Positions 1-37,600 of a DNA stretch of 64,000 nt are shown in pieces. The notes below the pieces were generated by a model. The model was not told the DNA's origin. It saw only the letters and a program-made list of their open reading frames with translations, and ran no database searches. Numbering within the stretch: position 1 is the stretch's first letter; each line of letters begins with the position of its first letter. Made by a program: the position numbers and the translations under genes. This DNA is from Apus apus (taxonomy: Eukaryota; Chordata; Aves; Apodiformes; Apodidae). The stretch spans positions 18,034,001-18,098,000 of the forward strand of contig NC_067285.1 in the NCBI RefSeq assembly GCF_020740795.1, in the 5' to 3' direction.

Positions 1-3000
1 TTTGTAGGAGTAAAGAAAATACAATAACCAGTGTAATTATTGTGACTTCACAGAGAAAAGTAGTGTTCAGCATTGATTATGGTGTTGTGTTGAGATCAGA
101 AGGATTCTGAGCGTGGTGCAAAAAACAGACAACTTCGTAAATTACAAACACCTTGGCTTATGTTGAATATAGAGAAGAAAGTTAATACCTAAGAAAACAA
201 CCCCTCTTCCCCTCCATGATTGTTTTAGGAATATGAATGTATTTTTTGTTTTAGATCTTATCTTTAGGGTTTTGTCCCCAGACAATGGTCCATTTAGCAT
301 ACCCCTTGATTTCTCGCATAAATGCTACCTAAACATGTCCAGTATTTAAAAAAAAAAAAAAAATCCATTGGTGTACTTGGGAAAAGAAGAGGATTTTTGG
401 TCCTTTTTGATGGTGAATACAGTGGATCATGCTGCTTTTTCTTTTTCTGAAGATAGCACTTCATAGCCCTTCCTTCAGAAGATTACATTTCTATGCTGAA
501 AGCTAACTTCTATGTTTAAAAGCTATTCAATGAAATCAAGTATCTTCTCATCTTTCAGTATTACAGGGAGCTTCAGTCTGTGCATTCATAAGGTGATGAG
601 CTGGGTAGGCTACACGGTATTCTGAAAGAGTTTGTTGCTCCTCTCCAGAGCTACTGCTCTGCCTTAGTATTGTCCAAGAAATGAGTGTTATTTAGCTATA
701 GTTTTCTGGATAAAGTATGGTTCATTCATATAGGATAGAAATCTAGAGAACTGCAAATAAGAAAGTGTAAGTTGTCTTTTCTGAGGGGTATGTTTTGGAT
801 ACCAGTGCATTCCTCAGCATTGCAAACATGGTTTGGATTTTTCTGTTCGGTTTCTAGCATACCTCTGGATGAATTTAAGGGCACAGGAAGAGACTGGATT
901 GATTGAGAATACCTGAACATTATGAAGTGACTCATGTCTGTCTAAACAACTGCAAAGCTTTGGTGTAATTTAGGCAACCCCCTGTAGTTCTCAAAGGAAG
1001 TAGCAATTATAACATGAAACTACTCTCTAATTTGCAAGATCAGCTTTACTTCAGCCTCTTCTCTATTGGCCGAATGCTTTGTCCTTAGTGTCATGCCTTT
1101 AACCTTTATCTCATGTGTGGTAGAACTTGCTGAATAGCTCATGATTTATTCCTAAGCAGGTAGAGAGCCAAGAAGCCCTGAAAACAGGTAGACAGATTGA
1201 GGTGTGGCAGTTCATCTGGACCTGAGTAAACTTCCAGATCCTGATTTCAATCCCATAGCCCAAAATTTCTTAAAACCAGTATAAATTAAAAAACAGTTGT
1301 GTAGAGGTATTTTCCTTCCCACTGACAGTGAAAGATTTTTCCCTTTCTTGCACCCCTTAGCTGGTAATTTTGTACCGAGTGATCTCAGCCACGAAACCTT
1401 TGCCTGTCGTGGAATCGTAGAACAATTTGGGTTGGAAGGAACCTTAAGGCTGAGACACTTCCCACTAGACCAAGTTACTCAAAGTCCTGTCCAAACTGTC
1501 CTTGAACACTTCCAGGGATGGGGCATCAGCATCTTCCCTGGGCAACCTGTTTCAGTGTCTCACCACCCTCACACTAGATAATTTCCTCCTAATGTCTAAC
1601 CTAAATCTACTCTCTTCCAGTTTCAATCCATTACCCTTGTCCTATTGCTACTGGTTGCCACTTACTTGTAATTTTTCTTATCTTTTTTCTTTCCTAACAC
1701 ATTTTTTCCTCAAGTCCTATTGTTAAATCGAGATAATGAGCTTATAACTGTTTGAATGCCTTTGTTCCCTGAATTAAATATTTTGCTTCGGCAGTCATGG
1801 AGCCACGCTTCTCAATTTGAGAGGTGTGTTCCAAGTCTGATCTATGTGACTTCTAACCTTTCCTTGACTAAAAGAAGAATTTTCTAGAGTGCAAACCAGT
1901 AGAGTGGACCTTGATAAAATCCCATAAATCCAGGAAAAGAGTTTGCTTTTTTTTTTTTTTTAGTGTAGGGTTTTTTTTGTTGTTGTTGGCTATTTTTTTA
2001 TTTTTTTTTTTTTTGCTGTGAATGGAACATATGATTGCATAGCAAATCAGTTCTACAAAAAACCAGCCACTGCAGTGGAATAACAACAACTTCACCATCA
2101 TTATCGTTCTCAATTACCCATGTAGTAGCTGTTAGTGGATGATAACTGCTTCCTTACATCCTTTGTGCCCTGGATGCTTTCTGAGAACAGCCAATTTCAG
2201 AAGGTTTGAAGGGGCACATGTCAATCTTCTTTGCTGATTTCTGTGCATGACTTCAGTAGTCTCTTGGGGAAGGGTAAGCCCTACATTGTCCATCAAGGAT
2301 CTAGAACTGGAGGTTCTAGAGTAGAGGCTGAGAAAAAGATCCCCAAGGTCAATGAGAGAATCAGTCAGAAAAGCCTTGGGCTTAATTACCTAGCAAGTAC
2401 AACTCTTTGAGGCAGAACAGAAAGAACAGCACAGAAAAATATCATTTGATTAGAGGAGCTGCTGAACTATCAGGAATCAGACTAGAAAGGACCGAAGTTG
2501 TGTGGGAAATGGCTTGGGTTTGAGCACATGCTCAACTAAACAACAAATCTCCTACATCTTTAAACAAGCAAAGCAATCCATAAAAGTAAGAATAGTAGGG
2601 AAACCAGAGGTGCAGCCGGACTCCACCTGATCTCCTCTTTCTTGGACATGGTATGGTATGGTACTAGACACCAACATGACAGAAAGCAAGGTTCTATAGC
2701 AAACTGATCATTTAAGTGGCACCAGTGTGCAGGTCATTTACACTAAGAGGGATTTCTCCTCAAAATCATAAACATCTCTGGTTCTGGAGGAGCATACAAC
2801 AGCAACTGGCACACGTAGGTTTTTAAAAGATTATGGACAGATGCTGAAAATTTATAATGTTGCATGAGTTCTGTGTAGATTTTTGTATGGTACAGTAAAA
2901 ACAAAAGAAGAAGTGGTGCAAGATCTGGTAGACATGTAAATACTTTCTCTAGAAAAGAAGATCACTTCTCTTATGCAACTGTCCAGAAGACTAAGCAGCA

Positions 3001-4030
3001 ATGATGCTGCACGTAAACTTGTGTTGCAGATCAAAGATTGTCTGAAGGGAAAGTGTAAATAATATGAATGTTTTTAATGTGAAAAAAAAACCACAACACA
3101 AAACCAAAAATGAAAAAGAAACAAACAAAAAAGGAAAAGCTAACTGCAGAAGGATGAGGAAAGGGCTCAAAGTTCTGATCTTGTCCTTGTAACGTCTTTA
3201 GGATGTAATGAAGGGGGGATGTGAAGGGAAAGCTGCAGATAATATATGTTTTTTAAATACCTATCTTGGAAAATGGTGAATAAAAACCTCAGTGTAGAAG
3301 ACAAGAAAAGAAAGAAATCTCTTTTTTATGCTGAAGCATTTCAGATGCTGCCAGCCTTCCCACTGTCGTTGTCTGCTTGTGTTAGGCCGTTAGAAACTCG
3401 TAGTACTCCTGTCGTTCTTATCCTCTCCTTAGTGTGAGTTCTTGCTGATGGAGAGGTATGGAATTGCAGGTTAGGTCAAGGGTGCCTGGAAACACTGACC
3501 ACAGACTTGATCAGCGAGCAGTTCTCAGAAGATGAGGAGCTGAGCTGTGGGCATACGTGCGCCTATTTTTAGGTATGAAGTTTAACTTGAAGCTCTTTGT
3601 TCTGGAATTTGATGCGCCAGAAGCGGTACCTCTTGTTCAACAGTTCCCATGCAAAGGGAAAGCCTGCTGAAGATCTAGAGAGGCATGGCCCTGTCAGCGC
3701 TTGCTGCTTAATGCAGTGACCAACTCTTGTGAGATCGGAACGCGTTTTCTAATGGGTGCAAATGAACCGGATTTATTCCTCGGATCGCACGGAGCAGAAC
3801 TTCACTCCGTGCGCAAGGGTTGTGACTTCTCAAACCGAGGGCTGAGAGCCGCTGTGTGGCAGCAGCAGGAGTATCTCTTGGCACCATCTTCTGGAAGTCA
3901 CCTAGAACTACAACCTCTGCCAAGAGTGCCCGGCAGTGTCTGAGGCTGTGCAGGCAGAAAGCCAGAATGGGAAGAACGGATGGACGTCTTCGTGGAACGT
4001 GTGTTGATGAATGTTATCTTCTCTCTTCAG
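1..4030 (+). other. ANKRD22: Intron 1 of ANKRD22 copy A
   Basis: By comparison with copy B, exon 1 would lie about 180 bases before the window, so this whole stretch is intron 1. It holds a CR1 fragment (about 1411-1668) and A- or T-rich runs near 347-363 and 1948-2014. I see no coding exon in it. Confidence 0.8.
1411..1668 (-). mobile_element. CR1-type LINE fragment, 3' end
   Basis: Read on the + strand, this is the reverse complement of a CR1 3' region: the 'gaatcgtagaacaatttgg' start, the 'ggttggaaggaacc' word, then the 'cttgaacacttccagggatg' and 'cagtgtctcaccaccctcac' words common in avian CR1 tails. It lies in ANKRD22 intron 1, copy A. It has no intact ORF. Confidence 0.85.
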
Positions 4031-7697
<3,667 letters not shown>

Positions 7698-8019
7698 TCA
7701 TCAAGAACTCTTGATCGTACAGGAAGCTGCCTCATCTGGCAATCTGTCTTGCACAGCAGCAGGAGTCCCGCAGAGTTTTGAGAGCTGTTACCTGACAAAG
7801 ATGGGAGTTATCAGTACCTCCACAGCCATGTAGGCTGGAAGGAGTTAGTGTGATTTTACTAAGCCATGAATGATTACAGCAGTGTTCAAAATATTGCCCT
7901 TCCCATCTGCTTCCCCAGTTTTATTACTTCTTTTGTGCAGACTGTGGATTTTGACAGCTTAGCTATGGCATTTCTTGAACCTTCAACAACACAAGTGTCC
8001 GTTGTGCAGCCAAAGCAAA

Positions 8020-8025
8020 AATAAA
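8020..8025 (+). terminator. ANKRD22: AATAAA polyadenylation signal of ANKRD22 copy A
   Basis: AATAAA lies 323 bases after the stop codon and is followed by a GT-rich stretch (gtgtgttact). This gives a 3' untranslated region of about 350 bases. Confidence 0.7.
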
Positions 8026-8736
8026 ATATCCTTTAGAATGTGTGTTACTTTTTCCATAGGGGATACACCTGATAACTGAATAGCATGTCACAGCAGCTTA
8101 TAAAAAAATCTGGTACCCTTCCTCTTTCTACCATGTGAATCACTCTCAGCTTAGCGCATCCTCCTCCCATCTCTGCTACAAGTTTCACACACCTTTATTC
8201 TCACTGTGTGGCTAAAAAAGAAGGATTATCTTCTGGTTTTATACAAGGAGAAAAAGATCAATTTTGTTGCTGGAGACCAAAAAGTAAAGCCAATTTCCAG
8301 GTCGCTTTCATGCATTAAGAAATAATAATGAAATATGAATAGTGCAGAAGAGAAACAAGTCTCTTGACTACCTTTCTAACACTAACAGTATGCTGAAGAA
8401 AAATAAATGAATAAATGAAATGTTGGTGGTGGGAACCAGACATGCCACTCCAAGGGGACTGGACAGGACAGCACACTTTTTAGAGTGGTGAATGCAGCAG
8501 GGGATGCATATACCAAAATAATAATAATAACAACAATGAAGTTTATCTTGCATGTCCAAAGGCGGAAGAAAACCTGCAGTGGTAAGTAATGTATTAATGG
8601 GGGCTGGTGCTTTGTGATTTAATAATGCAGCAATAAAGGAGGGTCTCCTTTCATAAGCTGCTGTGTTGACACTGTAGGTAAATGTGAGGACGAAAGAAGG
8701 AAAAAAAGCCAAGTTCTCTGTCGAGAGGATAAATTA

Positions 8737-8742
8737 TTTAAT
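8737..8742 (-). terminator. Possible ATTAAA polyadenylation signal of lipase gene 1
   Basis: On the minus strand ATTAAA lies about 430 bases after the ancestral stop position (9169). It is the best candidate I see between the two convergent genes, but the motif is short and AT-rich sequence is common here. Confidence 0.3.
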
Positions 8743-10524
8743 TTAAACTAAGGTCAATGATACTACAACAGAGAAATGGGAAAATCCCACCAGGGATTCT
8801 TCATGGAGAGACACAGATTTGGCATAGGAATACCCTGGGGTACATGAGATAGACAGAAGATCAATGGAGTGTATTATAAGGAAAATCAGTCTCGTATAAA
8901 GAAAAGCAGATCAAATTAAGTGATCCCTGCAGTGTGTGTTCATATCTACTCATACCTCCAACTTTCACTTCTGTAACACCTCAAATTTCTGAGGAAGACA
9001 GCAGTCACAGTAAGACCATGTAAAACCTCAAAACGTGAGGTAAGGAGGAAAAAAACAAGTGCAGAGAAATACCTAGTCTGGTGTCCGTTGTATGTGTCTG
9101 TGCATTTATCACCGTTACTGCCCAATGCCTGAGGTTTTACTGAGCGAACTGACACTGTGCATGTGGTTTCAAAAATATTTTGTCATTATTTCAATGATTT
9201 TCTCATACATTTTCTCCGTTGCATCAAGGCCCCAGATGAAATCGAGGTGTCCCCAGGCAGGGAAAATGGTCATGGTAAATGAGATTAGTAATCTGAGGAA
9301 GTAGCTTGGCCATGTCTTTTGGATCTGCAAATTTGTCCTCTCCCCCACTCCAGACAGCAGTTGGAATGTTTATCTTCTCTATCTTGTACACAGGAGGAGT
9401 GGACTGCAAGAAAGGCAGGAGAGCTGGGTGAATGCTGTTGTATCCAAAGTTGTGTTTAGAGGAGGGATTCGGTGCAGGCACCTCTCTCTTTCCCTTCTGC
9501 ACTGATCAAGGCCAGCCTCTGCAGTGTCTGTTTCCCAACCACATACCCTGCCTACGGCCAAAGGGAGTGATCCATCCTATTCCTGTAGTGCCTGGCTATA
9601 AATGGCCTTGCAGTCCTGACACCTGGTTGTGGCCTCCAGAGGTGGGAACAGGGAAAGAGCAGTGTTTGTGTTTATGATGCAAGGACAGTGGAGTTTATTC
9701 ATGTGTATATTTAGGGTGGGAAGATCTTTCAGTTTTGTAGTGGCATGGAGTGCAGCAACTGTTGGTCTTAGTTGTTTTCCTTGCGAATTAAGTGGCAGGG
9801 AAAGACTTTGACCATTTATAATTTTACCCTAGAAAATTTCTCAGGTCCTGTGTGTGGACGGAAGTGACCAACTCTATCTCTGGAGCCTTCCTGTCCGTGG
9901 AAAGCAGCTTTCCCTGGTTCAGCACGGGACACTGCAAGTCAAATGTGCTGGTTCAACAAAATTATTGTCAGCCAGTTGGAGAGATTGCTGCAGCTGTGAG
10001 ATTCATTTCATCTCTCAACAGAAAGGCAGACCTTGAGGATTTGTGGGGAAATGAAGAGCTCCATAGGAATCCCCTCTTGAGTGTAGCTCTTAGTCATTTT
10101 GGAATGGCAGGTAAATGGATATGTCGCTGGACACATCCCTGCATCAGCAGGAGAGATAAAATGAACTTGTGTTAGCTGTCTGCAAAGAGCTACGTCTTGT
10201 CTTTGAATAGGGTTTTGCACTTATGAGTATTAGGTTACAGTGAAACATTAGATCAGAGCACTCTCTCCGTCTTTCAGTAGCACTCAAGGTGCTAAAAGTC
10301 TGAATTTTTCTGTTCTTAATTTTGCCAAGACTCGAGGATGAGTTTTCAGGAAATACCACATTGCCTTACCTGGTTGTATTTCCTAATGTTTTCCTTAGAG
10401 CCATAGTCATAAGCTTGAAATTGGCCTGCATATGAAATCTGTTAAAAGAAGAGATAAAATATAAGTGCTAAGAGAGCAAGAGGCAGAGACCAGGACACCT
10501 TTTACTGCCTGTGATTGAAGCCAG

Positions 10525-10960
10525 GTCTCAGGTAGTGGACTGTGAGTTACTCCCACCCCTTCCTCTAGTTGCAAGCTTCCAGGGATACGGAGGATTGATT
10601 GCCAGGTGAGTGGCTTCATTGCCTTTTTCCTTGCTAATGTTCTCTCCTCATCCTGAGCTGCCATCCTTGCTATGTTTTTGGTATTAAAATTTGGCTTTTT
10701 TATCTTAGCTGACTAAATTTGGAGTTCTTGTTTGTGATGCAGTGTTGGATTCAGTTTCCACATGGGAAGAGGACCTGAATGCCCAGAATATGTCAAGGCT
10801 ATTACTAATCTAACATAAGATGTCTCCTTATACATCTTGTGGTTTGTGTGTCAGTTTTGTCTGGTCTCCTTACAGTAGTGGCACAATTTCCAGAGGCTCT
10901 GTACTTCTCACAGGAGCTTGACTGTACATGACTGGCACTCTGACAGCAGTTTTGAGATGG
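10525..10960. other. Stretch in lipase gene 1 intron absent from gene 2
   Basis: Alignment with gene 2 is lost at 10524/32999 and resumes at 10961/33003 at clearly lower identity. These 436 bases have no counterpart in gene 2. I see no repeat signature or ORF of note in them. They mark the recombination or deletion breakpoint. Confidence 0.7.
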
Positions 10961-13900
10961 GACATTAGACAGAAGGCACCAGATTTTTAGGGTCTGTGTT
11001 TAAAAGACATGATATATGCCCTGTAGGATTGATGAATGAAGAATTATGCACCCATCTGTTTTTTGTGGGATTTTGGTGGGGTTTTTTTTTTACATCAATT
11101 TATGTTAATTGTTTTTTTCCCAAACCTGACAAGTAATTTCATTTGTGAAAAAGTCAGTTTAGAGAACCGTTACTTCAAGGCTTCAAGTAACTGGTGATGT
11201 GCTAAAAATCTGCTTTCTGTCCTGCTTTTGCTATTTTCTTCTATTCTGCTGTATCTGTGTTTGCTTTGTAGCCACTTAAGAAGCCTTTGCTAGAGGCTGG
11301 CAAAATATCACCTCTGGACTTCCCTTCAAGTTTTTGGGTGCACTAAAGAAGTAGTAAGAATTTGTTTATATGTCAGCAGACAGTTATACCTGATGCCAGT
11401 GAAGAACATTCTGTAATGAAGTTCCAGCAGGGTAATGTCCGACAATTATATCTGTTCGACTCTGGAGAGAAAGCAGAAGCACTACAAAGGTAGGCATTAA
11501 AGCTGTGAAGGACCTGAGCAACATACTGCTGCTCTGTTAAACCCCCCTCTTAATATGACAGTCTTCACATTTCCTACAAAGATTGAGGGGAGACTCACAA
11601 ATACATGATTTGACAGTAGTAATAATTATGTATAATTTTTATCCCTTTGGGGAGGGTCTTTCACATATGGAAAGCAGCAATTGGGCAGTGCCTATGGCCT
11701 TTTTTTCCCAAGGTTCCAGAGTTTGTGTGAGGCTTTTAAATAGTGCTGTGCTTCATCAGTGTAAGAGACTGTCTTCTTCAGCATAATGAGGCTACAATTG
11801 TGGGAGATTTCTATAGGAATACTTGTTCACCAGTCTGAGTAGGAGAGATCAAAAGCTACCAGCAAACAGACATGTGGAGGGTCTGCAAGAAAAAGGTACA
11901 GCCAGAGTGAAGGAATGTGATCCTTCTGCTGAGAGGAGAGTGAGAAACAGCTTTGAGTTTTGGCTGGAAATATTTTGAGATGTAGCAACCAAGAAGAAAC
12001 CACCTCTTGTGTTCAAGGTGATTTGGATGTCTTCTTATTCAGGAAAGAGAATAGGATTTGTGCAAAAGAAAATAAAATCTTTCTCCATCTATTTGTCCAT
12101 GCTATAAAGCTTTGATATCTGTCCAACTTTTCCTTGTCTTAGTCCTATAAGAGGGAACACTGAGGAAGATCATGGCAAGATGGGACCTTTCTGAATTCAG
12201 CCTTTCTTCCTTGTGTGATTTGAATGTGTCAGGTGGCACATCTCATCATCAGCTGAGATCCTAATTGTCATTACTTGAAAACCCCAACATATTTCTCTAT
12301 GTCCCTGCAACTGTACATAGGCATGAGGCAAAGAAGTGGTTTTCCTTCAAAATTGCTTTAGCTTTACTTGTATTAAGGTGTTCTTGGACACGCTTACCGT
12401 GTTCAGATTTTGTAATCTGCCCCAGCTATGTGGGATATGACACTGCCACAGACTTTTCCCAGAGATCTACAGAACTGTATTATAAGTCCTTTCAGCAGTT
12501 CATTCTGTTGAAGAACACCTTTGCAGCCAAGAAGCAACTGTGGAGAGGAAAAGCACACAACTTTTTTATTATTTTTTCCTAGTGGCAGGAATATTTCATG
12601 CAGAAAACTGTCACTCCCTCTTCCCCAATAGCCCTGCCTCTTGGAAGAACATCATATGTTCTTCCTGCTTCTTAGTAATGGGCATAAGTTGTGGAGGTCA
12701 CCATCTGTTTATAGTGCTCTGACCTCAGTGAGAAAGGACAATTGGTTTGCACTCATGAGTGCAGAGCATAGCAAGTCCCTCTTTCCCCCAAATATTTCTT
12801 CTAGGCAGGTGCACAAACTACAGTGTGAGTATTGCTACTAAGTAAGGAGAGAGCAGACAAACAAGAAAGGTGTAGAGCTGGATGCTCTATAGTCACATAA
12901 TGAGTGCACCCTGGACAGCAAGATCATGTACAGCTTCTGACATCAAGTATAGCACACCGGATTTCCACCATTCCCAGCAAATTCCATTAAATTGGCAGAT
13001 TCTGGTGTGAAACAGGTATCTCCCTTGAAGTTTCCTTCATCGTTTTACAGGTAAATATTTCACAAGCATAAATGATGTGCGTGTCTGATAAGAATAAGAT
13101 GCAAGGGATCTTATTTGTGGTTTTCTCCTGATGCTTAAGGCAAGATTTAGTAACTTTGTTAGACTCCTTTTGTTCTGATAATGGTGAGCTTCCTTCAAAG
13201 ATATTTGATTTAAGCAAATATCAGTGAAAGAATACCTGTTATGTGAAGTTCCGAAAGATGCCTTGTCAAGCCTTGCAGCTTAGCTCTATGGAAAGCCTGA
13301 AGTGTGCCAGCACTGTCAGCAGTCTGATACACTGAATTCCTTCCTAACTCATCACCCCTTTCAAGACTGCTCAGTAGAGACCAAGCATAAAATTACATCT
13401 TTAAGAAAGAGGAAGAACGTACCCTGATCAGTGACTGGGGAAGACGTGCAAATTTTACCAGAGGACTGGTAGCGTATGTGATTGTGGTTACTGGTCCCAA
13501 AGCAAAGAGCACCTTGATCCTCTGAGCCAACTCAGGATAAGTACCAAATGCTATGAAGCCTGTAAAAACAGAAGACTCAAGTCAGGTTAGTGAAGAGATC
13601 TCCGCAGACCAACTAAGTAAAAAGCAATATGCAGAAAAGAAGAAGTGAGGCTAGATTAGCAGCCCATTGTATGTTGTACATTGCTGTGCTGCAGACCTAA
13701 CATTAAAATTGTTTTACTTGAAACTTGTATTTGGAGACCGAGTTAATTCTAAAATCACCAGTTACTTAGTACATGTCCTGATACTGGTTTTCTAAGAGCT
13801 GATAATTTTGCATTAGATCTGTTTTTCTGGAGAAGATGCATTAACCATATTTCTTCAGACCAAATTCCTCTAAAGTTCCCCAGACTGTAAAAAAATAATG

Positions 13901-15770
13901 AGTTTTTCAGCTTGCAGTCTATAAAGACTGTGTAAGTTCATGCTGGCATGCATTAGTACAATAATTATCTGAAGGTTTGTAGGTTAAGAGCAGAATGTTT
14001 CAGTTGTAACCAAGAGCAAACCCATGTGAGAGGGAATGGACACATAAAGGAAGCACATGGGGAAGCAAGGAAGGAAGTCAAACCAAAAAAAGTGTGCATT
14101 CCATCCTGTTTTCTTTATATGTCCAAATTTCTCCACTGATGGATTTGGTGAGAACTGGTTGCCTGAAACATATGTATCTGAACTCAAAGAAAGTCATGGA
14201 TCTTGTATGTTAATCTTACATACTAAAAACATTTGAAGACTGTAAGTGAGTTGATATTGGTATGCAGGTGCTAATAGCAAATAATTTTTTGGCGTTGATC
14301 TTTCTTTTCTGATTTCCAGTACTGGTAATTTTTTTTTAAATAATAAAGGGGTGAGTTATAGTCAGACATTAGCTATGCCTTAAATAATAATCTGGCATTA
14401 AGTTATGAGACTTAGTAATTATTTTTTTACTTCTGTTGTTTCAACTGTTTTATGGACTGTTGCACTGGTATTTACATCTGATCCACAAAGTTTCAGCATA
14501 TTTGTCTTAAAGCCTGAGATTCATAAAAGCTCATTTTTACTAAAACTGTAAGAAAAACATCAAATTGCTGGAATGCTATGTAAAACAAAGATAAATGCTT
14601 AGAGTGAAATAAAAATGGTTATTTAACAAACTGCAGTACATGGTACCTGGCAAATAATATCTTCTATACACCAGTAGTCTAAAGTGGTGTTGGATGGCCT
14701 GTTATTTGCTTGTTTCAGATAGAACAGTTCTTAGGAGTTCCCTCTACTTGGCAAGTGTCAGTTTAGAAAGTTTTTCTTCCTTTAGTAACTCATTTTGAGA
14801 AAGAAAGGTACTTAACAGAGAGAGAGATTGCAATCAGGTAGTGACATTGAGTATTTTGTACCCAGCTAGTCCAGACATTACCTGCAGTTGTGCCTTCGGA
14901 GTGACCAACATAGTATACATCCTTCTGTCCCGTTCTATTCATGATGAAATACAGCTCTGCTGGAATATCGTATTTACCTATCTCATCGAAGCTACAGGGT
15001 AGAAACACAAAAAGCTAGCAGACAATTGGGTTATCACAGCGCAAGTTGCTGATGTCAGCTTTGTTCATTGCACCAAGAAGAACCCACTGAAAGATGAGGT
15101 TGCACACTTTGTCTGCTTTCTTGCTTGAGCTGGGGAAGGGGGTAGAGGGATGGAGCTGTCCTGCCAGGCTGCCTGATGCCCTGGTTTCTCTGAGGAGGAG
15201 GTGCCAGTTGTTCCTGTCAGCAGCAGCCCTTGGGGGACTGTGATCAGTGCTCTAACTAGCATGGGTCACAAAATAAATTCTCTCTCAGTTAACATCACTT
15301 GTGAAAAATTTGGTTTCTAGACTGACTTGACCAGTCTCCTCTCCTGTCTGCACCTGGAACATGGTATCTGGTGGGAGACTTCAAGGTTACAGATGCCTTC
15401 CAGTGTTAGAAGTCTTTTCCCCAAATAAGCCAGTACTGTGTACGGACAAAGTGAAAAAGGTATGTACTTCCAGCTTCACTTCTGGATGTGCTCATTCCAG
15501 AAAGTCCTGTCCAGATCATGAAGTCAAATCCTTCTTTTGACCCCCCTGACATGCCCAGATGTGGCTGCATAAGGAGGAAAGAGCTGGCTTAGTCTCTAAA
15601 TGATGCATGTCCCAACTGAAGCCAGAGTACATGAATATGGATTTCATATAATCGAGAAGGGGATTATTTCAAATAACTAAAAGGAAAAGGGTTCTGCATC
15701 CCCATATTAACTACCCAAGCTTGCTAGACCTCTGAAAGTTGCTTTCTTCATTAATTCTTTCACCATGGAA

Positions 15771-15919
15771 TACCTGAACTGCCAGAACTCCTTCTGGCAG
15801 GGCTGAAGGGTCTGGTGTTTCAAAGACCAGGTGTTCCCTCGACTGTTTCCCAACCAGACGTCATAGCCGGCATCTGCGAGGAGGAAGCCCAGGCTGTTGT
15901 TGGGCAGGTTAGAAATCCA
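15771..15919. repeat. Short near-identical tract in lipase exon 3, gene 1 side
   Basis: About 149 bases over the 3' part of exon 3 match 38627-38775 with one difference noted, while the remainder of the exon on its 5' side is strongly diverged between the two genes. This fits a gene-conversion tract. Confidence 0.8.
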
Positions 15920-16103
15920 GGAGGTAGCATCTGCTAAAGTACCATGGTGTAGCAAGACTGCAGGCTTTTGCACTGTAAAAAAGGGATATGACAAAATTAT
16001 TAGAAAAGTCTGAAAAAAAGAATAGACATACTGAACTTGTGGACTTCAGATGGATTCAGAATTAAGACCACATGCCTGAGTAGTGCTGTTCCTGAGGTGG
16101 AAA

Positions 16104-17352
16104 GGTGTGGAAAACGCCATTGCTTGTGCAAAGGGGAAAGAGCGGGCACCCATGCAGGAGCTGGCTCTCAGACATTCCTTATGTCCTGTAACTGTGTCCC
16201 ACCTGTATTTTGGCTGTTCCTCCCAGCAGGAATTCTGAAAACACCAAGAATGTATCCATCTTCTGTGGTGACTTGATACTCCTCGCTGGGGTATCCATGA
16301 TACCTGATCATTTCACTCTGTGGGAAGCCAAAAGAGAGTTAGTTAACATGTAAGTTGTTTAGTTTTGGAGGTGACCAAGCTAAGCAGTGTGGGTGTGGGC
16401 TGTTCTGTGATGATAGTGCAAGGGCCCCGGCCACAGGGACTGTTGCTGAGAATAAGCATTACAGGTTTTATAAGAAGATGCATCAAAGTCTTCTTCACAC
16501 CCACTTAGGTGGTAACTGTCCGCTGTTTGACCTGCTATTACAAGACAAAGCAGAACTGTCCTGAGTGCCTTACCTTTTGGGCTGCTGAGCAATGCTGATG
16601 CAGATCATACCTTTCTGGAGAGGGAACGGGCAGCAGTATCTCTATAAGAAAATGCCTAATGCTGTGGGGTTTGGTCCATAATGATTCCTTTCTTGCCAAA
16701 GTGTGATTAGGCCAGCCCTGTAGGCAAGGCAAACAAGGGTGGAGCTCTTGTCTCTAGGGAGCTCATAGGAAGACCACACACACCTGATTTTGCATGTACT
16801 GTGAGGATTTCTTCAGTGCTTCAGAACAAGGGTTCTTGGGTTACTGTGTGCTGTGAGAATCTCCAGTCTGATGAAGAGGTTGAACCTCCCTTGCCACTGT
16901 GCTGAGCAGACAGATTGTGATGGAAGGAGAGGACTTGGCCTCCCTGGAGACTAGAGAGCAGCCTTTGCCTGCCTTGCAAAGGAATTCTTCTCTGGCAGCT
17001 CGGGCTGCTTGGATAGCAGCATCAAGGTTCCTTCTAGGCGAGTGCTCCCTACCACAGTGCTGGAGAGAACCCTTTGAAGGAGTCCTGCTTTTAGCCTCCT
17101 GACAGGGATTGTTAGTGATGGGGTGGTGGTAGAGGTGTGGGGAGAGACAATTTAGGAAGAAAGGGAGAGAAGGTGACCCAACTTACCACATTCATGAAGG
17201 ATTCAGGGTTGCGGTTCTTGGTGTACTGGCTTTTGTCTGAAGTCAGAGTGGAGGATGTTGTGGATCCTGCCGAGAAGGCAATTCCTTGGGAGCAGAGCAG
17301 CAGGAGGAGGCACCACATCTTGGGGCTGTGTGAAAGAAGTCGTGTAGGAGGA
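16104..17352. repeat. Near-identical tract over lipase exons 1-2, gene 1 side
   Basis: About 1.25 kb matching 39041-40289 at a constant offset of 22937 with only a few differences noted. It covers coding exons 1 and 2 and the intron between them. Flanks on both sides are diverged, so this is an island of high identity between paralogs. Confidence 0.9.
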
Positions 17353-18283
17353 GCAGACCTGGTGCAATTTGCTTGTATGATATTGGTGTTAATTTTTCCG
17401 TTCCTTTCTCTCTCATCTATGGTCCTCCCTACTGTAAATCTTTGTCTTGGCCACTTGGAGAAAGACTGCATTTTCATGGGGTTTTGGGGGTGACTGATGC
17501 TCCCAGGGAAGCTTTTTCTGAATAGAAATTCTAGAGTGCCTTCTATCTAGTTATCGCCCTGCTTTTGGGCTGTAGCCACGTTTGTAATCAGCATGGAAAA
17601 ACTAGACAGGTCATGAAAGCAGTATACTTCCTGATGTACAGTGGGAATGATTTTTAACATTTAAATATTTTAACATCTACCTCTTGAGTCACTAGAGTGT
17701 TTGGATTAAAGCAAAACTGGGATACACCCTTGATTTGAATATTACCATCCAAACTCACTCTAGGCCATCCATCCACTCTGAAGAAGATTACTTCGATTTT
17801 TATCTTAGAAGCACAGAAATCATCCCAACTGTGTGCTCTCTAAGGAGATTTTTATAGTTTAGTTTTGTACTCCACAGGTTTCAGCTGTTTTATTAATTTC
17901 AAACAGAAGTGTAACACCTTCTTCTATTCCTCCATGAGTAACATTGTTTGGGAATGAAGCTAAAAAGTTGAGCTGAAATCCATTTTTTTTTGTACTAATG
18001 GGTGAGACAATGGGGTAAACTGCTGTTCCTTTTTAGGGTATACTTTTTTATCTGTACTATTAACTCCAAGACTTGTCATGCACTGTCTCATAGTTTCAGT
18101 GACAAAACAGAAGCCTTGAACAGTCATCTGCTCTTTTTATCTAATGAAACAGCACCAAAGAGCAGCATTTGCCATGGCAAACTGGAAGTGACCACTTGAA
18201 AGATACATTCAAAAGGTTGTTTCTGGACACTTTTGTTACTAAATGAAAATAAGCTTTAAACATTCTAGAAATACGCTGAATGG

Positions 18284-19150
18284 TAGAGTCACAGAATTTT
18301 AGGGTTTGGAAGGGTCCTCTGCAGATTATCTAGTCCACCTGCCTTGCCAGAGGAGGTTCACCTAGAGCAGGTTGCTAAGGGTGGTGTCCAGGCAGGCTCT
18401 GAGTGTCTGTAGAGACAGAGATTCCACAGCTGCTCTGGGCAGCCTGTTCTAGTGCTCCATTACCCTTACACTGAAGGAGTTTCTCCTTATGCTTAGGTTG
18501 AACCTCTTGTGTTCCAGTTTGTGACCACTGCCGCTTGTCCTGTCACTGGACACCACTGAAAAGAGTCTGGTCCCATCCTGCTTTAGATATTTAGAAGAGT
18601 TTATGAGATCCCCCCTCAGTCTCCTCTCCTGCAGTCTGATCAGACCCAGCTCTCTCAGCCTTTCCTCATATGCTACATACTCTCGTCCCCTAACGATCTC
18701 AGTGGTTCTGTGCCGGACTCTCCCCAGTAGTTCCTTGTCCTTCATGAACTGGGGAGCCCAGAATGGGATGCAGTATTCCGTATGTGGCCTCACCAGGACA
18801 GAGTAGAGGGGAAGGATAACCTCTCTCAACCTCCTTGCCATGATCTTCTTGATGCACCCCGGACTGCCACTGGTCTTCTTGACCACGAGGGCACATTGCT
18901 AGGTCATGGTCATCCTGCTGTCCACCAGGACTTCCAAGTCTTTTTCCGCAGAGCTGCTTTCTACCAGGTCAGCCCCAAGCTGTATTGGTGCAAGGGGTTA
19001 TTCCTTCCGATGTGCAGGACCCTACATTTGCCCTTGTTGAACCTCTTTAGGTTCCTCTCTGCCCAGCTCTTCAGCCTTTCCAGATCACGCTGGATGGCAT
19101 CACAGCCCTCTAGTATTCTCAGCAAGGTGTTCTCAAGGGAGTCATACATT
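18284..19150 (-). mobile_element. CR1-type LINE fragment with ORF2 C-terminal remains
   Basis: On the minus strand this encodes pieces of the C-terminal part of a CR1 reverse-transcriptase ORF. One piece (about 18961-19149) includes [21 protein letters not shown] second (about 18449-18886) includes LREVILPLYSVLVRPHTEY and LIRLQERRLRGDLI. The two are separated by frame breaks and an in-frame TAG. The 3' end lies at the low-coordinate side (tagagtcacagaattttag). It is a 5'-truncated, inactive copy inside the first intron of lipase gene 1. Confidence 0.92.
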
Positions 19151-19588
19151 TTTTTCCAGATACACTCTCTTTTGGACAGAAAGGCGCCAGGGCAGTTAGT
19201 GTGGCTAGCAGGCTCCAGGGGAGCTTACAAGGAAAGCTAAAATGCATTTGAAACTGTGGAACAAAATACCCAGTTTATGCTCACGCTTTGCATACCAAGA
19301 TTTTCATGTGTTCACTGTGACATCCTTAGCAAAAAAAAAACAAACCACAGCAACCCAAACAACATGAGTAGAACAAAATAAAACTATTGGTTAATCTTTT
19401 TTTCCCAATTGTGCAGGTCAAAGACTTCTTCCTCTCCTCAGTGTCGGCAAACATGCACCTTGATGCTTAGCAACAGCCCTGTAGATCAGAGTCTGTCTAG
19501 TCTGACAAGCAACTGCAGAAGAGCAAGGCTACACATCTCTACAGAGACAGGCAACAGAGAAAGAGACCATGAGCACATATGTACTCAC

Positions 19589-19725
19589 CTCTGCTTTGAT
19601 TGCCTTGCTTGTGTCTTCTGCCGCAGTTCCTGGTCTGTCTGCACTAGCAGGCTGGTTCAATGGCAGAAAGCTTTGCAATCGAAACAAGATTTCACTTAGG
19701 AACACCAGTACTCTATGATGTCTCC
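19589..19725 (-). other. Probable 5' untranslated exon and start region of lipase gene 1
   Basis: On the minus strand a stretch ending ...cagtcaaagcagag-like sequence is followed by a GTGAGT donor (19583-19588). A closely similar stretch with its own GTAAGT donor occurs at 43384 before gene 2. It contains no ATG. The next acceptor (ttctttcacacag) lies seven bases before the start codon at 17318. A TTTAAATA word at about 19752-19759 could serve as a TATA-like element, which would put the transcription start near 19725. The outer end is an estimate. Confidence 0.55.
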
Positions 19726-20128
19726 ACACATAGGTGCTGTATGAAGCAGAGTATTTAAAGGGTGGTGTTATTTTATTATAAGCAGTACATTTGCATGACA
19801 TTGATAAAGATCAAATTGCACCATGGGTCAGGAGGCTGAAAGAGGTGTCTAACCTATGGTTAGGAGACTTCTTAGCATTTGCATAAATCTCATACCTCAT
19901 CACATTTGGGTTGCTTACCTGCTATCCACTTAAAGCTCTGGCGGCAGAAGTCCTAGAAGTGATTTTCAAGAGGGTCAGATATGTGATGCTGGATTAAGTA
20001 GTAGCTCATACTGTCTTTTCAAAGGTGATGCCTGAAAATATTGCTGTGTTTCATGGAGGCATCTTGCTTGGATCTTTCTTTCTTTGTGTTTTTTTTTTAA
20101 ATACTTTCCTTGTTACCATTCATTTATC

Positions 20129-20500
20129 ACAGAATTGTCATGGTTGGAAAGGACCTCTGAGACCACAGAGTGCAGCCATCAACACAAACCCAAACAGAAA
20201 AACACATTGCACCAGAAAACCCCCTGTGGAAAAGGACGTGGGGGTACTAGTGGATCAGAAACTGGTCATGAGCCACCAATGTGCAGTTGCAGCCTAGAAG
20301 ATGAACCCCACCCTGCGGTGTATCAAAAGAAGTGTGACCAGCAGATTGAGGTGATTCTGCCCCTCTACTCTGCCCTGGTGAGACCTCACCTAGAATGCTG
20401 GGCCCAGCTCTGGTGCTCCCAGCACAAGAAAGATGTGGACCTGTTGGAATGTGTCCATAGAAAGGTCACGAAAATGATCTGAGGACTGGAGCCCCTCTTT
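20129..20500. mobile_element. Two CR1 pieces in opposite orientation
   Basis: Bases 20129-20190 look like the reverse complement of a CR1 3' end (gttggaaaggacctctgag). Bases 20225-20480 read on the + strand as CR1 ORF2: DVGVLVDQKLVMSHQCA, then after a frame break VILPLYSALVRPHLE. Two insertions or one rearranged element are both possible. Confidence 0.75.
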
Positions 20501-20994
20501 TATGAGGACAGGAAAAGTGATTTTAAACTATAAAGACAAAAGAGATTTTGGGGTCTGCAGACACTTGAAATACGCATGGCTTACTCAGAAATACTGTCTG
20601 AGGATGGTGCCAAAATACTATCAGCATCTTTTATTCAGAGCCATGAACACTGAAAAGGGACAATGACATCAACAATAATTGCTCAACAACAATTGACATA
20701 TAAAATTGGCAGCTGAAGCATAAACCATATTCATTGTTTGGGCTGGGCTAGGAAGAGAAGACTGAGTAAAGGTGGTGGAAGAGACTGAAGTTAATTATAC
20801 TGGGAACTCTCATTCAAGGTGTGGGATCTAGTTGCTAACTCTTTTCTCAGTAGGTGTCAGAAGTGCTCATGCAGAGGGTTTGGTTGATGTTTTAGTTAGA
20901 AGTAGCTTGGGTGGCAAACTTGCTGTCCTGCACAGTTACATGTTTAAAGTTTAAGGTTTCATGTTTTTTGTTTTGTTTGTTTATTTTGTTTTTT

Positions 20995-22016
<1,022 letters not shown>

Positions 22017-22296
22017 CCCCTCTCCCTTTCTTCACCTGTGAAATTGTCTTCCTCTCTCTCCCACTCCTCCCCTCCCCAGCTTGTTTTGCTGCTTTCCTTT
22101 TTAGGCAACTGGAGGCAGTTATTGCAAAAATGACAGAGAAAAATGCTTCTCTGTTGTAACTTGTTCTGTCAGTCTCCTGTAAGCTGTTGTTCACGTTTAC
22201 CTTCCTGGGTTGGGTTTCTGAAGACAATTGTTTCTACCAAGTAGAGATCACTTCAAGCAGTTGTAGCTTAAGAAAGAAGGATACTTATATTAACCA

Positions 22297-22309
22297 GTTA
22301 AATATTAAC
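22297..22309 (+). promoter_or_regulatory. ANKRD22: HNF1-like site before ANKRD22 exon 1
   Basis: The 13-mer gttaaatattaac matches the known HNF1 consensus GTTAATNATTAAC at all but one position, with both half sites intact. It lies 87 bases before the ATG at 22396, a plausible promoter-proximal position. No clear TATA box was seen. The function is inferred from the motif only. Confidence 0.4.
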
Positions 22310-22395
22310 CAGATTCAGACAAAGTCAAGCGCGTTCAAGAGAGGTTAACTTGTTGGGCTGGTGAACAAGAACAAACTCAGGCAGTGAAGATAGGC

Positions 22396-30175
<7,780 letters not shown>

Positions 30176-30497
30176 TCATCAAGAACTCTTGATCGTACAG
30201 GAAGCTGCCTCATCTGGCAATCTGTCTTGCACAGCAGCAGGAGTCCCGCAGAGTTTTGAGAGCTGTTACCTGACAAAGATGGGAGTTATCAGTACCTCCA
30301 CAGCCATGTAGGCTGGAAGGAGTTAGTGTGATTTTACTAAGCCATGAATGATTACAGCAGTGTTCAAAATATTGCCCTTCCCATCTGCTTCCCCAGTTTT
30401 ATTACTTCTTTTGTGCAGACTGTGGATTTTGACAGCTTAGCTATGGCATTTCTTGAACCTTCAACAACACAAGTGTCCGTTGTGCAGCCAAAGCAAA

Positions 30498-30503
30498 AAT
30501 AAA
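30498..30503 (+). terminator. ANKRD22: AATAAA polyadenylation signal of ANKRD22 copy B
   Basis: Same AATAAA and GT-rich follow-up as in copy A, 323 bases after the stop codon. Confidence 0.7.
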
Positions 30504-31214
30504 ATATCCTTTAGAATGTGTGTTACTTTTTCCATAGGGGATACACCTGATAACTGAATAGCATGTCACAGCAGCTTATAAAAAAATCTGGTACCCTTCC
30601 TCTTTCTACCATGTGAATCACTCTCAGCTTAGCGCATCCTCCTCCCATCTCTGCTACAAGTTTCACACACCTTTATTCTCACTGTGTGGCTAAAAAAGAA
30701 GGATTATCTTCTGGTTTTATACAAGGAGAAAAAGATCAATTTTGTTGCTGGAGACCAAAAAGTAAAGCCAATTTCCAGGTCGCTTTCATGCATTAAGAAA
30801 TAATAATGAAATATGAATAGTGCAGAAGAGAAACAAGTCTCTTGACTACCTTTCTAACACTAACAGTATGCTGAAGAAAAATAAATGAATAAATGAAATG
30901 TTGGTGGTGGGAACCAGACATGCCACTCCAAGGGGACTGGACAGGACAGCACACTTTTTAGAGTGGTGAATGCAGCAGGGGATGCATATACCAAAATAAT
31001 AATAATAACAACAATGAAGTTTATCTTGCATGTCCAAAGGCGGAAGAAAACCTGCAGTGGTAAGTAATGTATTAATGGGGGCTGGTGCTTTGTGATTTAA
31101 TAATGCAGCAATAAAGGAGGGTCTCCTTTCATAAGCTGCTGTGTTGACACTGTAGGTAAATGTGAGGACGAAAGAAGGAAAAAAAGCCAAGTTCTCTGTC
31201 GAGTGGATAAATTA

Positions 31215-31220
31215 TTTAAT
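31215..31220 (-). terminator. Possible ATTAAA polyadenylation signal of lipase gene 2
   Basis: Counterpart of 8737-8742, about 430 bases past the stop codon at 31646. Weak motif in AT-rich sequence. Confidence 0.3.
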
Positions 31221-31645
31221 TTAAACTAAGGTCAATGATACTACAACAGAGAAATGGGAAAATCCCACCAGGGATTCTTCATGGAGAGACACAGATTTGG
31301 CATAGGAATACCCTGGGGTACATGAGATAGACAGAAGATCAATGGAGTGTATTATAAGGAAAATCAGTCTCGTATAAAGAAAAGCAGATCAAATTAAGTG
31401 ATCCCTGCAGTGTGTGTTCATATCTACTCATACCTCCAACTTTCACTTCTGTACACCTCAAATTTCTGAGGAAGACAGCAGTCACAGTAAGACCATGTAA
31501 AACCTCAAAACGTGAGGTAAGGAGGAAAAAAACAAGTGCAGAGAAATACCTAGTCTGGTGTCCATTGTATGTGTCTGTGCATTTATCACCGTTACTGCCC
31601 AATGCCTGAGGTTTTACTGAGCGAACTGACACTGTGCATGTGGTT

Positions 31646-34600
31646 TCAAAAATATTTTGTCATTATTTCAATGATTTTCTCATACATTTTCTCCGTTGCA
31701 TCAAGGCCCCAGATGAAATCGAGGTGTCCCCAGGCAGGAAAATGGTCATGGTAAATGAGATTAGTAATCTGAGGAAGTAGCTTGGCCATGTCTTTTGGAT
31801 CTGCAAATTTGTCCTCTCCCCCGCTCCAGACAGCAGTTGGAATGTTTATCTTCTCTATCTTGTACACAGGAGGAGTGGACTGCAAGAAAGGCAGGAGAGC
31901 TGGGTGAATGCTGTTGTATCCAAAGTTGTGTTTAGAGGAGGGATTCGGTGCAGGCACCTCTCTCTTTCCCTTCTGCACTGATCAAGGCCAGCCTCTGCAG
32001 TGTCTGTTTCCCAACCACATTCCCTGCCTACGGCCAAAGGGAGTGATCCGTCCTATTCCTGTAGTGCCTGGCTATAAATGGCCTTGCAGTCTGACACCTG
32101 GTTGTGGCCTCCAGAGGTGGGAACAGGGAAAGAGCAGTGTTTGTGTTTATGATGCAAGGACAGTGGAGTTTATTCATGTGTATATTTAGGGTGGGAAGAT
32201 CTTTCAGTTTTGTAGTGGCATGGAGTGCAGCAACTGTTGGTCTTAGTTGTTTTCCTTGCGAATTAAGTGGCAGGGAAAGACTTTGACCATTTATAATTTT
32301 ACCCTAGAAAATTTCTCAGGTCCTGTGTGTGGACGGAAGTGACCAACTCTATCTCTGGAGCCTTCCTGTCCGTGGAAAGCAGCTTTCCCTGGTTCAGCAC
32401 GGGACACTGCAAGTCAAATGTGCTGGTTCAACAAAATTATTGTCAGCCAGTTGGAGAGATTGCTGCAGCTGTGAGATTCATTTCATCTCTCAACAGAAAG
32501 GCAGACCTTGAGGATTTGTGGGGAAATGAAGAGCTCCATAGGAATCCCCTCTTGAGTGTAGCTCTTAGTCATTTTGGAATGGCAGGTAAATGGATATGTC
32601 GCTGGACACATCCCTGCATCAGCAGGAGAGATAAAATGAACTTGTGTTAGCTGTCTGCAAAGAGCTACGTCTTGTCTTTGAATAGGGTTTTGCACTTATG
32701 AGTATTAGGTTACAGTGAAACATTAGATCAGAGCACTCTCTCCGTCTTTCAGTAGCACTCAAGGTGCTAAAAGTCTGAATTTTTCTGTTCTTAATTTTGC
32801 CAAGACTCGAGGATGAGTTTTCAGGAAATACCACATTGCCTTACCTGGTTGTATTTCCTAATGTTTTCCTTAGAGCCATAGTCATAAGCTTGAAATTGGC
32901 CTGCATATGAAATCTGTTAAAAGAAGAGATAAAATATAAGTGCTAAGAGAGCAAGAGGCAGAGACCAGGACACCTTTTACTGCCTGTGATTGAAGCCAGA
33001 CAGACATTAGACAGAAGGCACCAGATTTTTGGGGTCTGCGTTTAAAAGATGTGATAGATGCCCTGTAGGATTGATGAGTGAAGAATTATCCACCCACCTG
33101 TTTTTTGTGGGATTTTGGTGGGTTTTTTTAAATTGTGGTGTTTTTTGTTTTTTTTTAACATCTATTTATGTTTATTTTATTTTTTGCCCAAACCTGAGAA
33201 GTAATTTCATTTGTGAATGTTGTATATAGCTCAGAGTGAGATGAAGTCAGTTTAGAGAACAGTTACTTCAAGGCTTCAAGTAACTGGTGATGTGCTAAAA
33301 ATCTGCTTTCTGTCTTGCCTTTGCTATTTTCTTCTCTTCTGCTGTATCTGTGTTTGCTTTGTAGCCACTTAACAAGCCTTTGTTAGAAGCTGGCAAAATA
33401 GGTTGCAAAGCCACTGGCTGCCAATGGTTTGTCCCCATTTTCTGGCTCTGGGTAGGTGTGTCCCACAGGACTGACTGCAGGGAATTTTTGTTGGGTGTCC
33501 TCAGTAGCACACCTATATCGTAGACCATAGGAAGTGTTTGCAGAAATGGGGAGTCAGCCTACAGGATGTCTACAGATATGTCCTGGCTCAGCAGGTGCCC
33601 CTGTACACATTCAGGAATGTTTCTTGGCTGGAGCGGTTTTGTCTTGTTCTGATTCAGACCATGAGCAGAATAAGCTCAGATCTGCCAGAGCGTATGTAGA
33701 AACCCACTATTAGAGAACTGGAATCCAGGATCTGGACAGTGGCTCAAACCAGAACAGTGACTAAAAGGGATTTGGAAAAACCTGGCTGTTGGGAACATCC
33801 CTGTAGAGCAACGTTGCTTGTAACATCCTCTGTTAGTATGAGACTGTGCTCGTGTTCACTTCTGTAGGTTTTAAGGTGAATGTCCTCATAAAAAAAGAAG
33901 AAGGTTGGAAGCCGATAGAGCCCAACATGCAGAGAGGCCTGGTGCACCCTGGGGAAACCTCAGTGCCTGATACCAAGGGGACAATTCAGGTAATGGTCTG
34001 GTGAGCCATGGGAAACTGCTTCCTCCATGGCAGGTGCTCAGAGCGGGGAGTGAGAAGATGTGAACAGCTGTTTCCCAGATCCACCACATCTGGACTTCTC
34101 TGGAGTTAGTTGTGTGCATTAAAGCAGTAGTAAGAGTTTGTTTATGCATCAGTACGGGGTTATACCTGACGCCAGTGAAGAATGTTCTGCACTGACGTTC
34201 CAGCAGGCGAATGTCCTACGTATGTATCTATTCGACTCTGGAGAGAAAGCATTACAAAGGTAGGGATTAAAGCTGTGAAGGACCTGAGCAACGTACTGTT
34301 GCTGTTTAAAAAACCTCTTTTAGTTGGATACTGTTCAAATATTAGACAGAAAACTGAGAAGTGGGCTTATGAACAGCTGGGTAATAGCATGTGCACTCTT
34401 TCTCCACAGAAGTGAATATTTTCCATGAAGATATTACTACTGTGAGATTCTGCCTTTCAGCAACAGTAGGGAAAAACTTTCCAGTCATTACAGAGTATAT
34501 TCCTCACCTCACATGAAACTCTCATGCATGTTCAAGTCTTTTGAAGATTTGGTTTCCTCTTCACTTTACTCCTAGTGCTAGAGAAGCCAGCTTACAAAAC

Positions 34601-37600
34601 CTACTGCTTTTCCTTGTGTTTGCATTTTTAAAGTTCTGTTAGGTAGATTTCTAATTCCAACTTCCTGAATTCCTTGTCAGACTTGCTATCTTACCAATGA
34701 TAACCACATTCATGACTTAACCCTTATCAGGAAAGGTCTTTAGTGGTTTCACCCTGCATTTCAAAAGGCCTGCAATGCCTTTAATTGCTTTTGCATTGAA
34801 CCTCTGATTCTCACTGCTTTCCTGTATGTGCTTTTTACAAGTGGCTGTGGAGGGAGAAAAATGGCCCCTGGTCTTCACAAATATTGAAGTAACAAACATG
34901 ATGCAGATCGGCTTCTGCATACCTTGGCTACCGTAATGGGTATTTTAGGCACACTCCAGTGTTTATGTGCTGGCAAGCATAGAACAACTCTCCTGTGAAT
35001 CCCTCTATAGGTGTGTTGCACCCCTCAGGTGCAGTGCAGACACCTGTAGCTCTTAATGTTGTGGATTGGACTGTTGGTCTCAGTTCTAAGGACCGAAAAA
35101 CAAGAAGGGAAAATGTCTCTCACAGTAGTTCTGTAGGACCAAGTTCTGGTGCAAGTAGCCTGAAAAGTGGGAAGAGCAAAGGAGCTTTTTCTTGTCTTTT
35201 AATTATTCCTGGTGTCTGCATGCTAAGGAAGGAAACCAGGAATTGTATTGCTGAAAAAGAAGACAGCTTCCATCATGTACTGTCTCTTTAAAAAGAGCAT
35301 TTGTGTATGTCTTGTTGCCTGAGCCCCAAAGAGGGCACATCTATTGACATGTGTAATATAGCTTCAAACTGAGTTCAGTCCATCATTTCTGGGACTGAAA
35401 TGTGTCTAGTTGTTGGTCCCATCCATCGTGACCTCTAGTCCTGTTTGGCACTGTTTGAACCACACGATATCCTGGCATTCCCCCAGTCTGCTGAGAACTA
35501 TGTTGTGGTTCATGTTCATTTACATGCATGACAATTGCTAGAAAAGGAGAGACCACACAAACTTGACTTCTAAACTTACTTACCGTGTTCAAATTTTTTA
35601 TGTTGCCTCCAGCTATGTTACAGAGCACATGGCCACAAAACTTATCCAGGCTTGCACATAACTGTGTCACAGGTCCTTTCAGAAATCCAATTTGGTGCAT
35701 GGCTCCTTTGCTGCCTAATGCAAACTAAGGAAAAAATAAGTGCAACACTTCTTTTTTTTTCTTGTTACAGGGGCATTCTCTGCAGAAAATTGTTGCTAAT
35801 AGCCTAGCCTGCTAATCTTAGTATTCAAAGACTGCTGAAACAGCTTGCCTTCCCAGTACCCCTTAAAACATCTCTTTGCCCATCGTGTATCTTGTATCCT
35901 TCCTTCTTCACCCTGCTGGCATCAATCCTGGAGAAAGCCATCCTTCCATTTCTAGCTTAGAGACCTCAATGCTCATTCATTTCTGAAGTTCCAGAGATAT
36001 CATTTAACAGCAAGAGTCTTATCATAGAATCATAGAGGTTGGGAGGGACCTCTGAAGATCATTGAGTCCAAGCCCCTGCTGCAGCAGGAACACCTAGGGC
36101 AGATCACACAGGAACACGTTCAGACAGGTCCTGAAAGTCTCCAGAGAAGGAGACTTCACAGCCTCTCTGAGCAGCCTGTCCCAGTGCTCCGTCACCCTAA
36201 CAGTAAAGAAGTTTTTCATCATGTTGAGGTGGAACTTCCTTAGGATGAGACAGTTTCTCAAGTCTCCTACTTCACTGGACCTGCTGCTACAAGCCCTGTA
36301 TCTCCAGTATTTTCCCCACAGAGCGCGGAAACAGATTTTTCAAGAGCACTCAATTCATTCCAAGCATGTCACCTGTTTGGGAACACTCTATCCCAGGCTG
36401 AGCGAACCCTGTTAAGATAACACAGGCATTGGGCATCTTAGAAGGAAAAATTACTTACCCTGATAAGTGGCTCAGGAACCTTTGCTATCTTAATTAAAGG
36501 GCTTGTAGCATGTGAGCATGTGATTACTGGGCCCAAAGCACAGAATATTTTCACCCGCTTAGCAAGCTCAGGGTATGTAGAAAATGCTATGAAGCCTGCA
36601 AACACAGAAGAGACAGCCTGAGTTAGGGAAGACATCTTCCATAGACAAAATAAATAAATAAGCAGCGGGTGACAAACAAGAAGTGACACTGGATTTGGAG
36701 TCCATTATCTGTTGCCCATGTTTGTCTCTGTTGCATGTTTTACCTAGGTTAAGTGTTGAAGCTGAGTCCTGAAATTAAATTTATTTTGGAAGTAAAGTTA
36801 ACCCTGAGGTTTAGAGCCTGTCTGGACATTGCCTTTCTCAGAAGGCTTTTTGTAGGCAAAATATCAATGGGGTATTCACGATAAATTCTCTCCAAAGTTT
36901 AACAATAATGCCATAAAAAATGAGCTTTTCAGATGATAATCTCTAAAGGTTTATGTATGTTTATGCTTCTATGAAACAGTAGAAAAACTAGCTGAATACT
37001 ATGAGTTATGAGTGTTTTCAACTGGTGGTTTGTATCAAAGGCAGCTAAAGAAAGCCTAGATGGTTAGTTTGTTTTGCTATAAGGGGCTTAAAATACTCTT
37101 ATGAGAGGAAAAGAAAGGAAAGTCTAGAGCTGTGACAATATATTATTTTTACATTTCCTTCTCATTTTTTTTCTGGGTTGCTTACACTGAACTTACAGTG
37201 AACTGGCAGTTGCTAATTTCTGAACAATATCCATTCGTGGATCTTTAACCATCAGCATCAGTAACTTTCAATTGATGCTGAAAGAAAGTTAGTTGCACTC
37301 AGAGGCCATGAAGTGAGTTACCTGCTACAGGTTCACACTGAGAAAAAAAAAAAAAGTATTTAATGTTTTTTTCTTTCCTAATTTTCAGTCTCTGGCAATA
37401 TGTTTTTAAACAGTAACGTGGCCAGTTATAGCCACTTGCGAGCTATGCTTTAAATTGTATGATTGGCATTAAGTCACATGACCTAGTAGTACTGAATTTC
37501 TTTTTCCTTGTCTTTTGTTATCTGAAAATATTTATTACATGTACTGTTTTGTCTTTTTAGCTTTTCCTTCTTTTAACAAGGAAAATAATCGTATGTCTTA

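Follow-up and report, generated by a model that had tools for sequence, protein, structure and literature searches.

A tandem array of lipase and ANKRD22 units on a contig of Apus apus and the doubtful standing of its middle unit

Related loci and the sequence analysed

In mammals the genes LIPM, ANKRD22 and STAMBPL1 lie in this order, in human at 10q23. We analysed a stretch of 64,000 nucleotides from Apus apus (contig NC_067285.1, 18034001-18098000; hereafter the window) in which lipase and ANKRD22 genes form a tandem array, and added 50 kb to its left and 30 kb to its right, 144 kb in all. Coordinates follow the window numbering, with values of zero or below for positions of the contig to the left of the window. 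As in mammals, lipase and ANKRD22 stand tail to tail and a STAMBPL1-like exon lies beyond ANKRD22; unlike the mammalian neighbourhood, the lipase-ANKRD22 pair is repeated, one ANKRD22 is truncated (block A2) and none is left at one lipase unit (U1). The exon beyond, at -49290 to -49009 on the minus strand, matched USP8_dimer (E 1.4e-11), and we take it to be STAMBPL1-like. From this neighbourhood (ANKRD22 and the STAMBPL1-like exon) we presume that the array lipases are orthologs of LIPM.

LIPM-like duplicates are not new in birds, since chicken 'Lipase member M-like 2' appears in the excerpted text of one study among the genes enriched in interscale over scale epidermis (PMC8742010). The array resembles the chicken LIPM-like genes in having such duplicates, but the excerpt deals with skin expression and does not mention an ANKRD22 array. 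No paper on a bird ANKRD22-lipase array was found among the literature matches listed, a weak negative given that these were partial texts. The lipases also resemble the acid lipase family (lysosomal acid lipase 6v7n; gastric lipases 1hlg and 1k8q), and one of them, X', matched 6v7n over residues 37-401 with E 3.1e-135. The nucleophile motif (GxSxG) was GHSEG in all four array lipases (U1, X', X and Y), in contrast to GHSQG in the aligned human acid lipase.

The locus was further compared with assembly artefacts. Ko et al. (2022; PMC9516828) describe gaps between copies and erroneous k-mers as marks of false duplication. This locus shares with a false heterotype duplication, as treated there, an assembly gap, base errors of local extent and very similar sequences next to each other on one scaffold. 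In contrast to that case, the gap here interrupts one of the copies without replacing any base, and other evidence speaks for a real array around it.

The tandem array and its ANKRD22 copies

The array covers about 75 kb, from -34291 to 40289, and extends left of the window. Its order is STAMBPL1-like gene - U1 - A2 - X' - A - X - B - Y - further lipase, with four lipase units (U1, X', X and Y), all on the minus strand, and ANKRD22 blocks between them. The outer flanks differ: U1 adjoins the STAMBPL1-like exon and Y adjoins the further lipase, both in ungapped sequence. U1 and Y are therefore paralogs and not alleles, and whichever way the gap is read, there is an array of several units. We consider the tandem array very probably genuine.

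U1 comprised a lipase 3' end (-34291 to -32763), a Y-type body (-31222 to -23994) of about 7.2 kb with 99.3% identity to 33066-40289 and, after a switch in ungapped sequence, an X-type 5' flank (-25243 to -19966). Compared with X and X', this flank was a patchwork, with 99.3-99.6% identity first, about 78% over 0.43 kb and then 98.2-98.8% over 1.28 kb, ending with two short stretches adjoining A2 that were 89-92% and 88% identical. The U1-A2 junction, where a deletion truncates the ANKRD22 block, showed a 4 bp overlap (-19969 to -19966), and 6.28 kb were absent there relative to the X-B junction. At the other end of the array, the similarity of the Y unit to the X units stopped at 40289. U1 also has about 1.46 kb (-32687 to -31222) that Y is without at 33066-33075; an edge of this extra sequence resembles what we take to be the 3' end of a CR1 element.

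The third ANKRD22 block, A2, is truncated (-19969 to -13809), starting at the equivalent of position 4261, and is followed by X', the second X-type lipase (-13808 to -3418). Between X' and copy A lies an insertion resembling a long terminal repeat (LTR) element (-3417 to -917), which is absent from the X-B junction. Its arms (-3417 to -2634 and -1684 to -917) were about 97% alike, with 4 mismatches in 786 aligned columns, and enclose about 950 bp; the insertion has TG...CA ends, and a short TCAT repeat flanks it. A 240-bp microsatellite (-786 to -547) stands left of copy A.

The block pair inside the window was compared by self-BLAST and then base by base. A preliminary description, made from the window's letters, had reported a near-identical repeat of ANKRD22 and lipase 3' exons with a 22.5-kb period, and both the repeat and the naming proved right. 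Copy A (1..10524) and copy B (22580..32999) were 99.85% identical between 1-4640 and 22580-27218 and 99.83% identical between 4741-10524 and 27219-32999, with a period of 22,579 bases left of the gap. Over about 10.42 kb in the window they differed by 13 substitutions (6/4639 left of the gap and 7/5781 right of it) and four one-base indels, so that the earlier count of about fifteen sites was fair; at all four indels the extra base was in copy A. Copy A does not begin at position 1: its homology to B runs leftward past the window edge to about -546, adjoining the left copy's own microsatellite, and the left end of copy B is at about 22034.

The gap in copy A, already seen from the window, was located at 4641-4740; it is exactly 100 bases long and is the sole N run in the window and in the 144 kb around it. 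At the equivalent point copy B (27218|27219) and A2 (-19590|-19589) are both unbroken, and the 100 N therefore stand for zero bases. The microsatellite of about 1 kb described between the copies is a TCTT repeat at 20996-22015, between lipase X and copy B. It had been called a typical place for assembly trouble; the break is elsewhere, at the gap in copy A, where no sequence is missing.

ANKRD22 was complete twice in the array (A and B) and truncated once (A2). Copy B has all six of its exons in the window (22396..30175, plus strand), and copy A has exons 2-6 there (4031..7697, plus strand) and exon 1 outside, immediately to the left (-183 to -163). Copy A (-183 to 7697) yielded an open frame of 191 amino acids once the six exons were joined across the gap, and all six exons were letter for letter identical between A and B. 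A2 retains exons 3-6, with one substitution. The identification as ANKRD22 draws on Ank family matches, a tblastn match with the human protein, and the six exons and 191-residue frame, which the human gene also has. By Pfam, ankyrin repeats were found in the open reading frame at 3944-4402, the one match among the ten frames of the window scanned; the other nine had none.

Genome-wide probes gave full-length matches in this array only: two for 1000-3000, three for 5000-7700, two for the X core (12000-14500) and two for the Y core (34300-37300). Among the best-scoring candidates of these four probes, which do not by themselves prove absence elsewhere, there were no leftover copies outside the array, and the remaining rows were cross-matches between X and Y inside it or short fragments of repeat-like sequence.

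Divergence and probable exchange between units

The closest relatives of the window's units are A2, X' and U1, left of the window, and these had been overlooked when the block pair was compared with the lipase paralogs further on. Substitutions numbered 19/5780 between A2 and A, 21/5780 between A2 and B, 76/10341 between X' and X and 40/7220 (0.55%) between U1 and Y. The lipase exons, whose labels e1-e10 skip e5, differed unevenly between X' and Y. The exons at the ends of the gene were almost the same (0/132 in e1, 1/115 in e2, 0/69 in e9 and 2/234 in e10), and the inner exons carried 13/199 (e3), 4/110 (e4), 39/137 (e6), 47/141 (e7) and 15/72 (e8) differences. Two lipase types thus persist in the middle of the gene, and the gene ends and ANKRD22 are nearly uniform.

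This pattern suggests, from the sequence, exchange between units by crossing over or conversion. The lipase 5' ends with e1-e2 at 16103-17352 (X) and 39040-40289 (Y) were 99.6% identical between adjacent lipase bodies that are far more diverged, and they are likely a conversion tract. A 5' end of this type is common to all four units. We read the U1 hybrid as a product of unequal crossing over or conversion, and because its flank is patchy more than one exchange event would have been involved. An account by one recent crossover alone is insufficient, since the flank is of uneven age: two stretches are 0.2-1.6% diverged from X' and X, the roughly 78% identical 0.43-kb patch lies between them, and the two short stretches next to A2 are 8-11% diverged.

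Unequal crossing over and gene conversion between units may have enlarged the array and kept its members alike. As lipase and ANKRD22 sit tail to tail within a single unit, copying of the lipase would have carried ANKRD22 along, and A and B would be the ANKRD22 blocks with the latest common history, through a fresh duplication or conversion. Taken further, the locus might be a young, still exchanging array of four lipases, with ends and ANKRD22 kept at 99% or more, two old types retained in e6-e8 and new flank and body combinations, such as U1, arising by exchange; we put this fuller picture forward as speculative and rather unlikely.

The coding differences between X' and X comprised 8 nonsynonymous and 0 synonymous codons on 942:264 sites. 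Seven of the eight lie in e3 (15774-15972) and e8 (11390-11461), and three of the ten changed bases fall within one codon. The all-nonsynonymous pattern hints at selection for diversity but does not show it; calculated by hand, the probability was about 0.14 and not significant. Between U1 and Y there were 3 nonsynonymous and 2 synonymous changes.

The middle unit and lipase X

The preliminary description offered two explanations for the block pair, a recent true duplication or two haplotypes. For one unit, A + X (about 22.5 kb), these are fair alternatives; for the locus, a multi-unit array, they are too narrow. On the sequence evidence we lean slightly towards a true middle unit. The gap has cost no base, and A and B are equally diverged on its two sides. 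X' and X have diverged about as much as the paralogs U1 and Y. The LTR-like insertion follows X' and has no counterpart at the X-B junction. In a three-way comparison over 6.1 kb, A2 had 16 private sites, B had 4 and A had 2. With U1 as outgroup over 1.5 kb, three sites joined A with B, one A2 with A and one A2 with B, which is weak. If the middle unit is real, the N gap would be a cut in otherwise continuous sequence.

Several observations weigh against a true middle unit. The run from X' through A to X is broken by the gap, albeit with zero bases missing; the gap lies between units X' and X, and for the A-B pair it falls inside A. It also sits 380 bp inside the start of the match of A2 to A and B. 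Between A2 + X' and A + X there were 18 indels, 12 of them one base long, and 11 of these 12 lay within 7807-12420 (scan P 0.00025). Two of the clustered indels are A2-specific (7807 and 8049), three are A-specific (8975, 9260 and 9615) and six were not polarised. Lipase X carries two frameshifts and X', U1 and Y carry none. Transitions made up 7/17 of the A-B substitutions over -546 to 10524, against 80/116 in X'-X and U1-Y taken together (P 0.03, post hoc), and A-T changes made up 6/17 against 12/116 (P 0.013, post hoc). Four of the 17 substitutions are outside the window, to its left, and three of these adjoin the microsatellite.

Several of these observations would fit two alleles placed in series, which we regard as possible, though somewhat improbable. 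The true locus would then be U1 - A2 - X - B - Y; X' and X would be its two alleles, and copy A, so close to B, would be an artefact. A path through an assembly graph could visit both X alleles one after the other, given that X lies between two ANKRD22 blocks. A repeat graph would fork where the match of A2 begins, and the gap inside copy A is close to where A2, A and B can no longer be told apart. The cluster of one-base indels and the two frameshifts in A + X, the odd A-B substitution spectrum and the near-identity of A to B all fit such a history, and gaps between copies and erroneous k-mers are among the marks of false duplication in the excerpt of Ko et al. (PMC9516828). Against it stand the zero bases lost at the gap and the equal divergence on its two sides, the grouping of A with B rather than with A2 (on few sites) and an X'-X divergence as high as that of true paralogs here. 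Two alleles in a bird may differ as much.

A plain end overlap of two haplotype contigs, with the last 24 kb of the left contig equal to the first 22.5 kb of the right one and left unmerged, would account for the alignment of -19589 to 4640 with 4741-27218 throughout, bar the insertion and the microsatellite, and for a gap separating the two aligned stretches; we disfavour it as very improbable because the ends abut to the base, which is unexpected of independent ends, and because the first ANKRD22 block of the right contig is nearer to B (7/5781) than to A2 (19/5780). This overlap and any other assembly error share the small probability left by the two main readings.

The choice between a true middle unit and serialised alleles bears on gene counts. 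Where a gene is flanked on either side by a genuine repeat, its two alleles can pass for tandem genes, and the counts of two complete ANKRD22 genes and four lipases should not be used before a read check. If the middle unit is real, this locus would be well suited to following gene conversion and unequal crossing over among copies that are 0.1-0.7% diverged.

Lipase X (9169..17318, minus strand) has nine coding exons and a frame that closes early. Should the middle unit be real, lipase X could be a dying copy, a true pseudogene rather than a product of poor polishing; we find this doubtful, a judgement separate from the weighing of the readings above. One base is lost near 12420 in e7 and one is gained at 9260 in e10, so that the frame closes before the last exon, the exon that in this family carries the catalytic Asp and His. 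The three polarised A-specific one-base gains are close together, however, and each repeats a neighbouring base, as consensus errors do; beyond its two indels, X differs from X' in 8 codons only.

The three other lipases, U1, X' and Y, have open frames of 402 amino acids each. Y (31646..40255, minus strand) likewise has nine coding exons, and PF04083 and PF00561 were matched in Y and X', the two lipases scanned. A short stretch presumably near the oxyanion hole reads HAFLGD in Y and U1, HGALAD in X' and HGTLAD in X. An older lipase paralog with GYSQG lies at 46884-54542 on the minus strand, and its exon peptides were 44-71% identical to the array lipases. Right of the window, at 65598-65750, a weak match to a lipase last exon (35%, E 3e-5) contains stops and is possibly a piece of an old lipase pseudogene.

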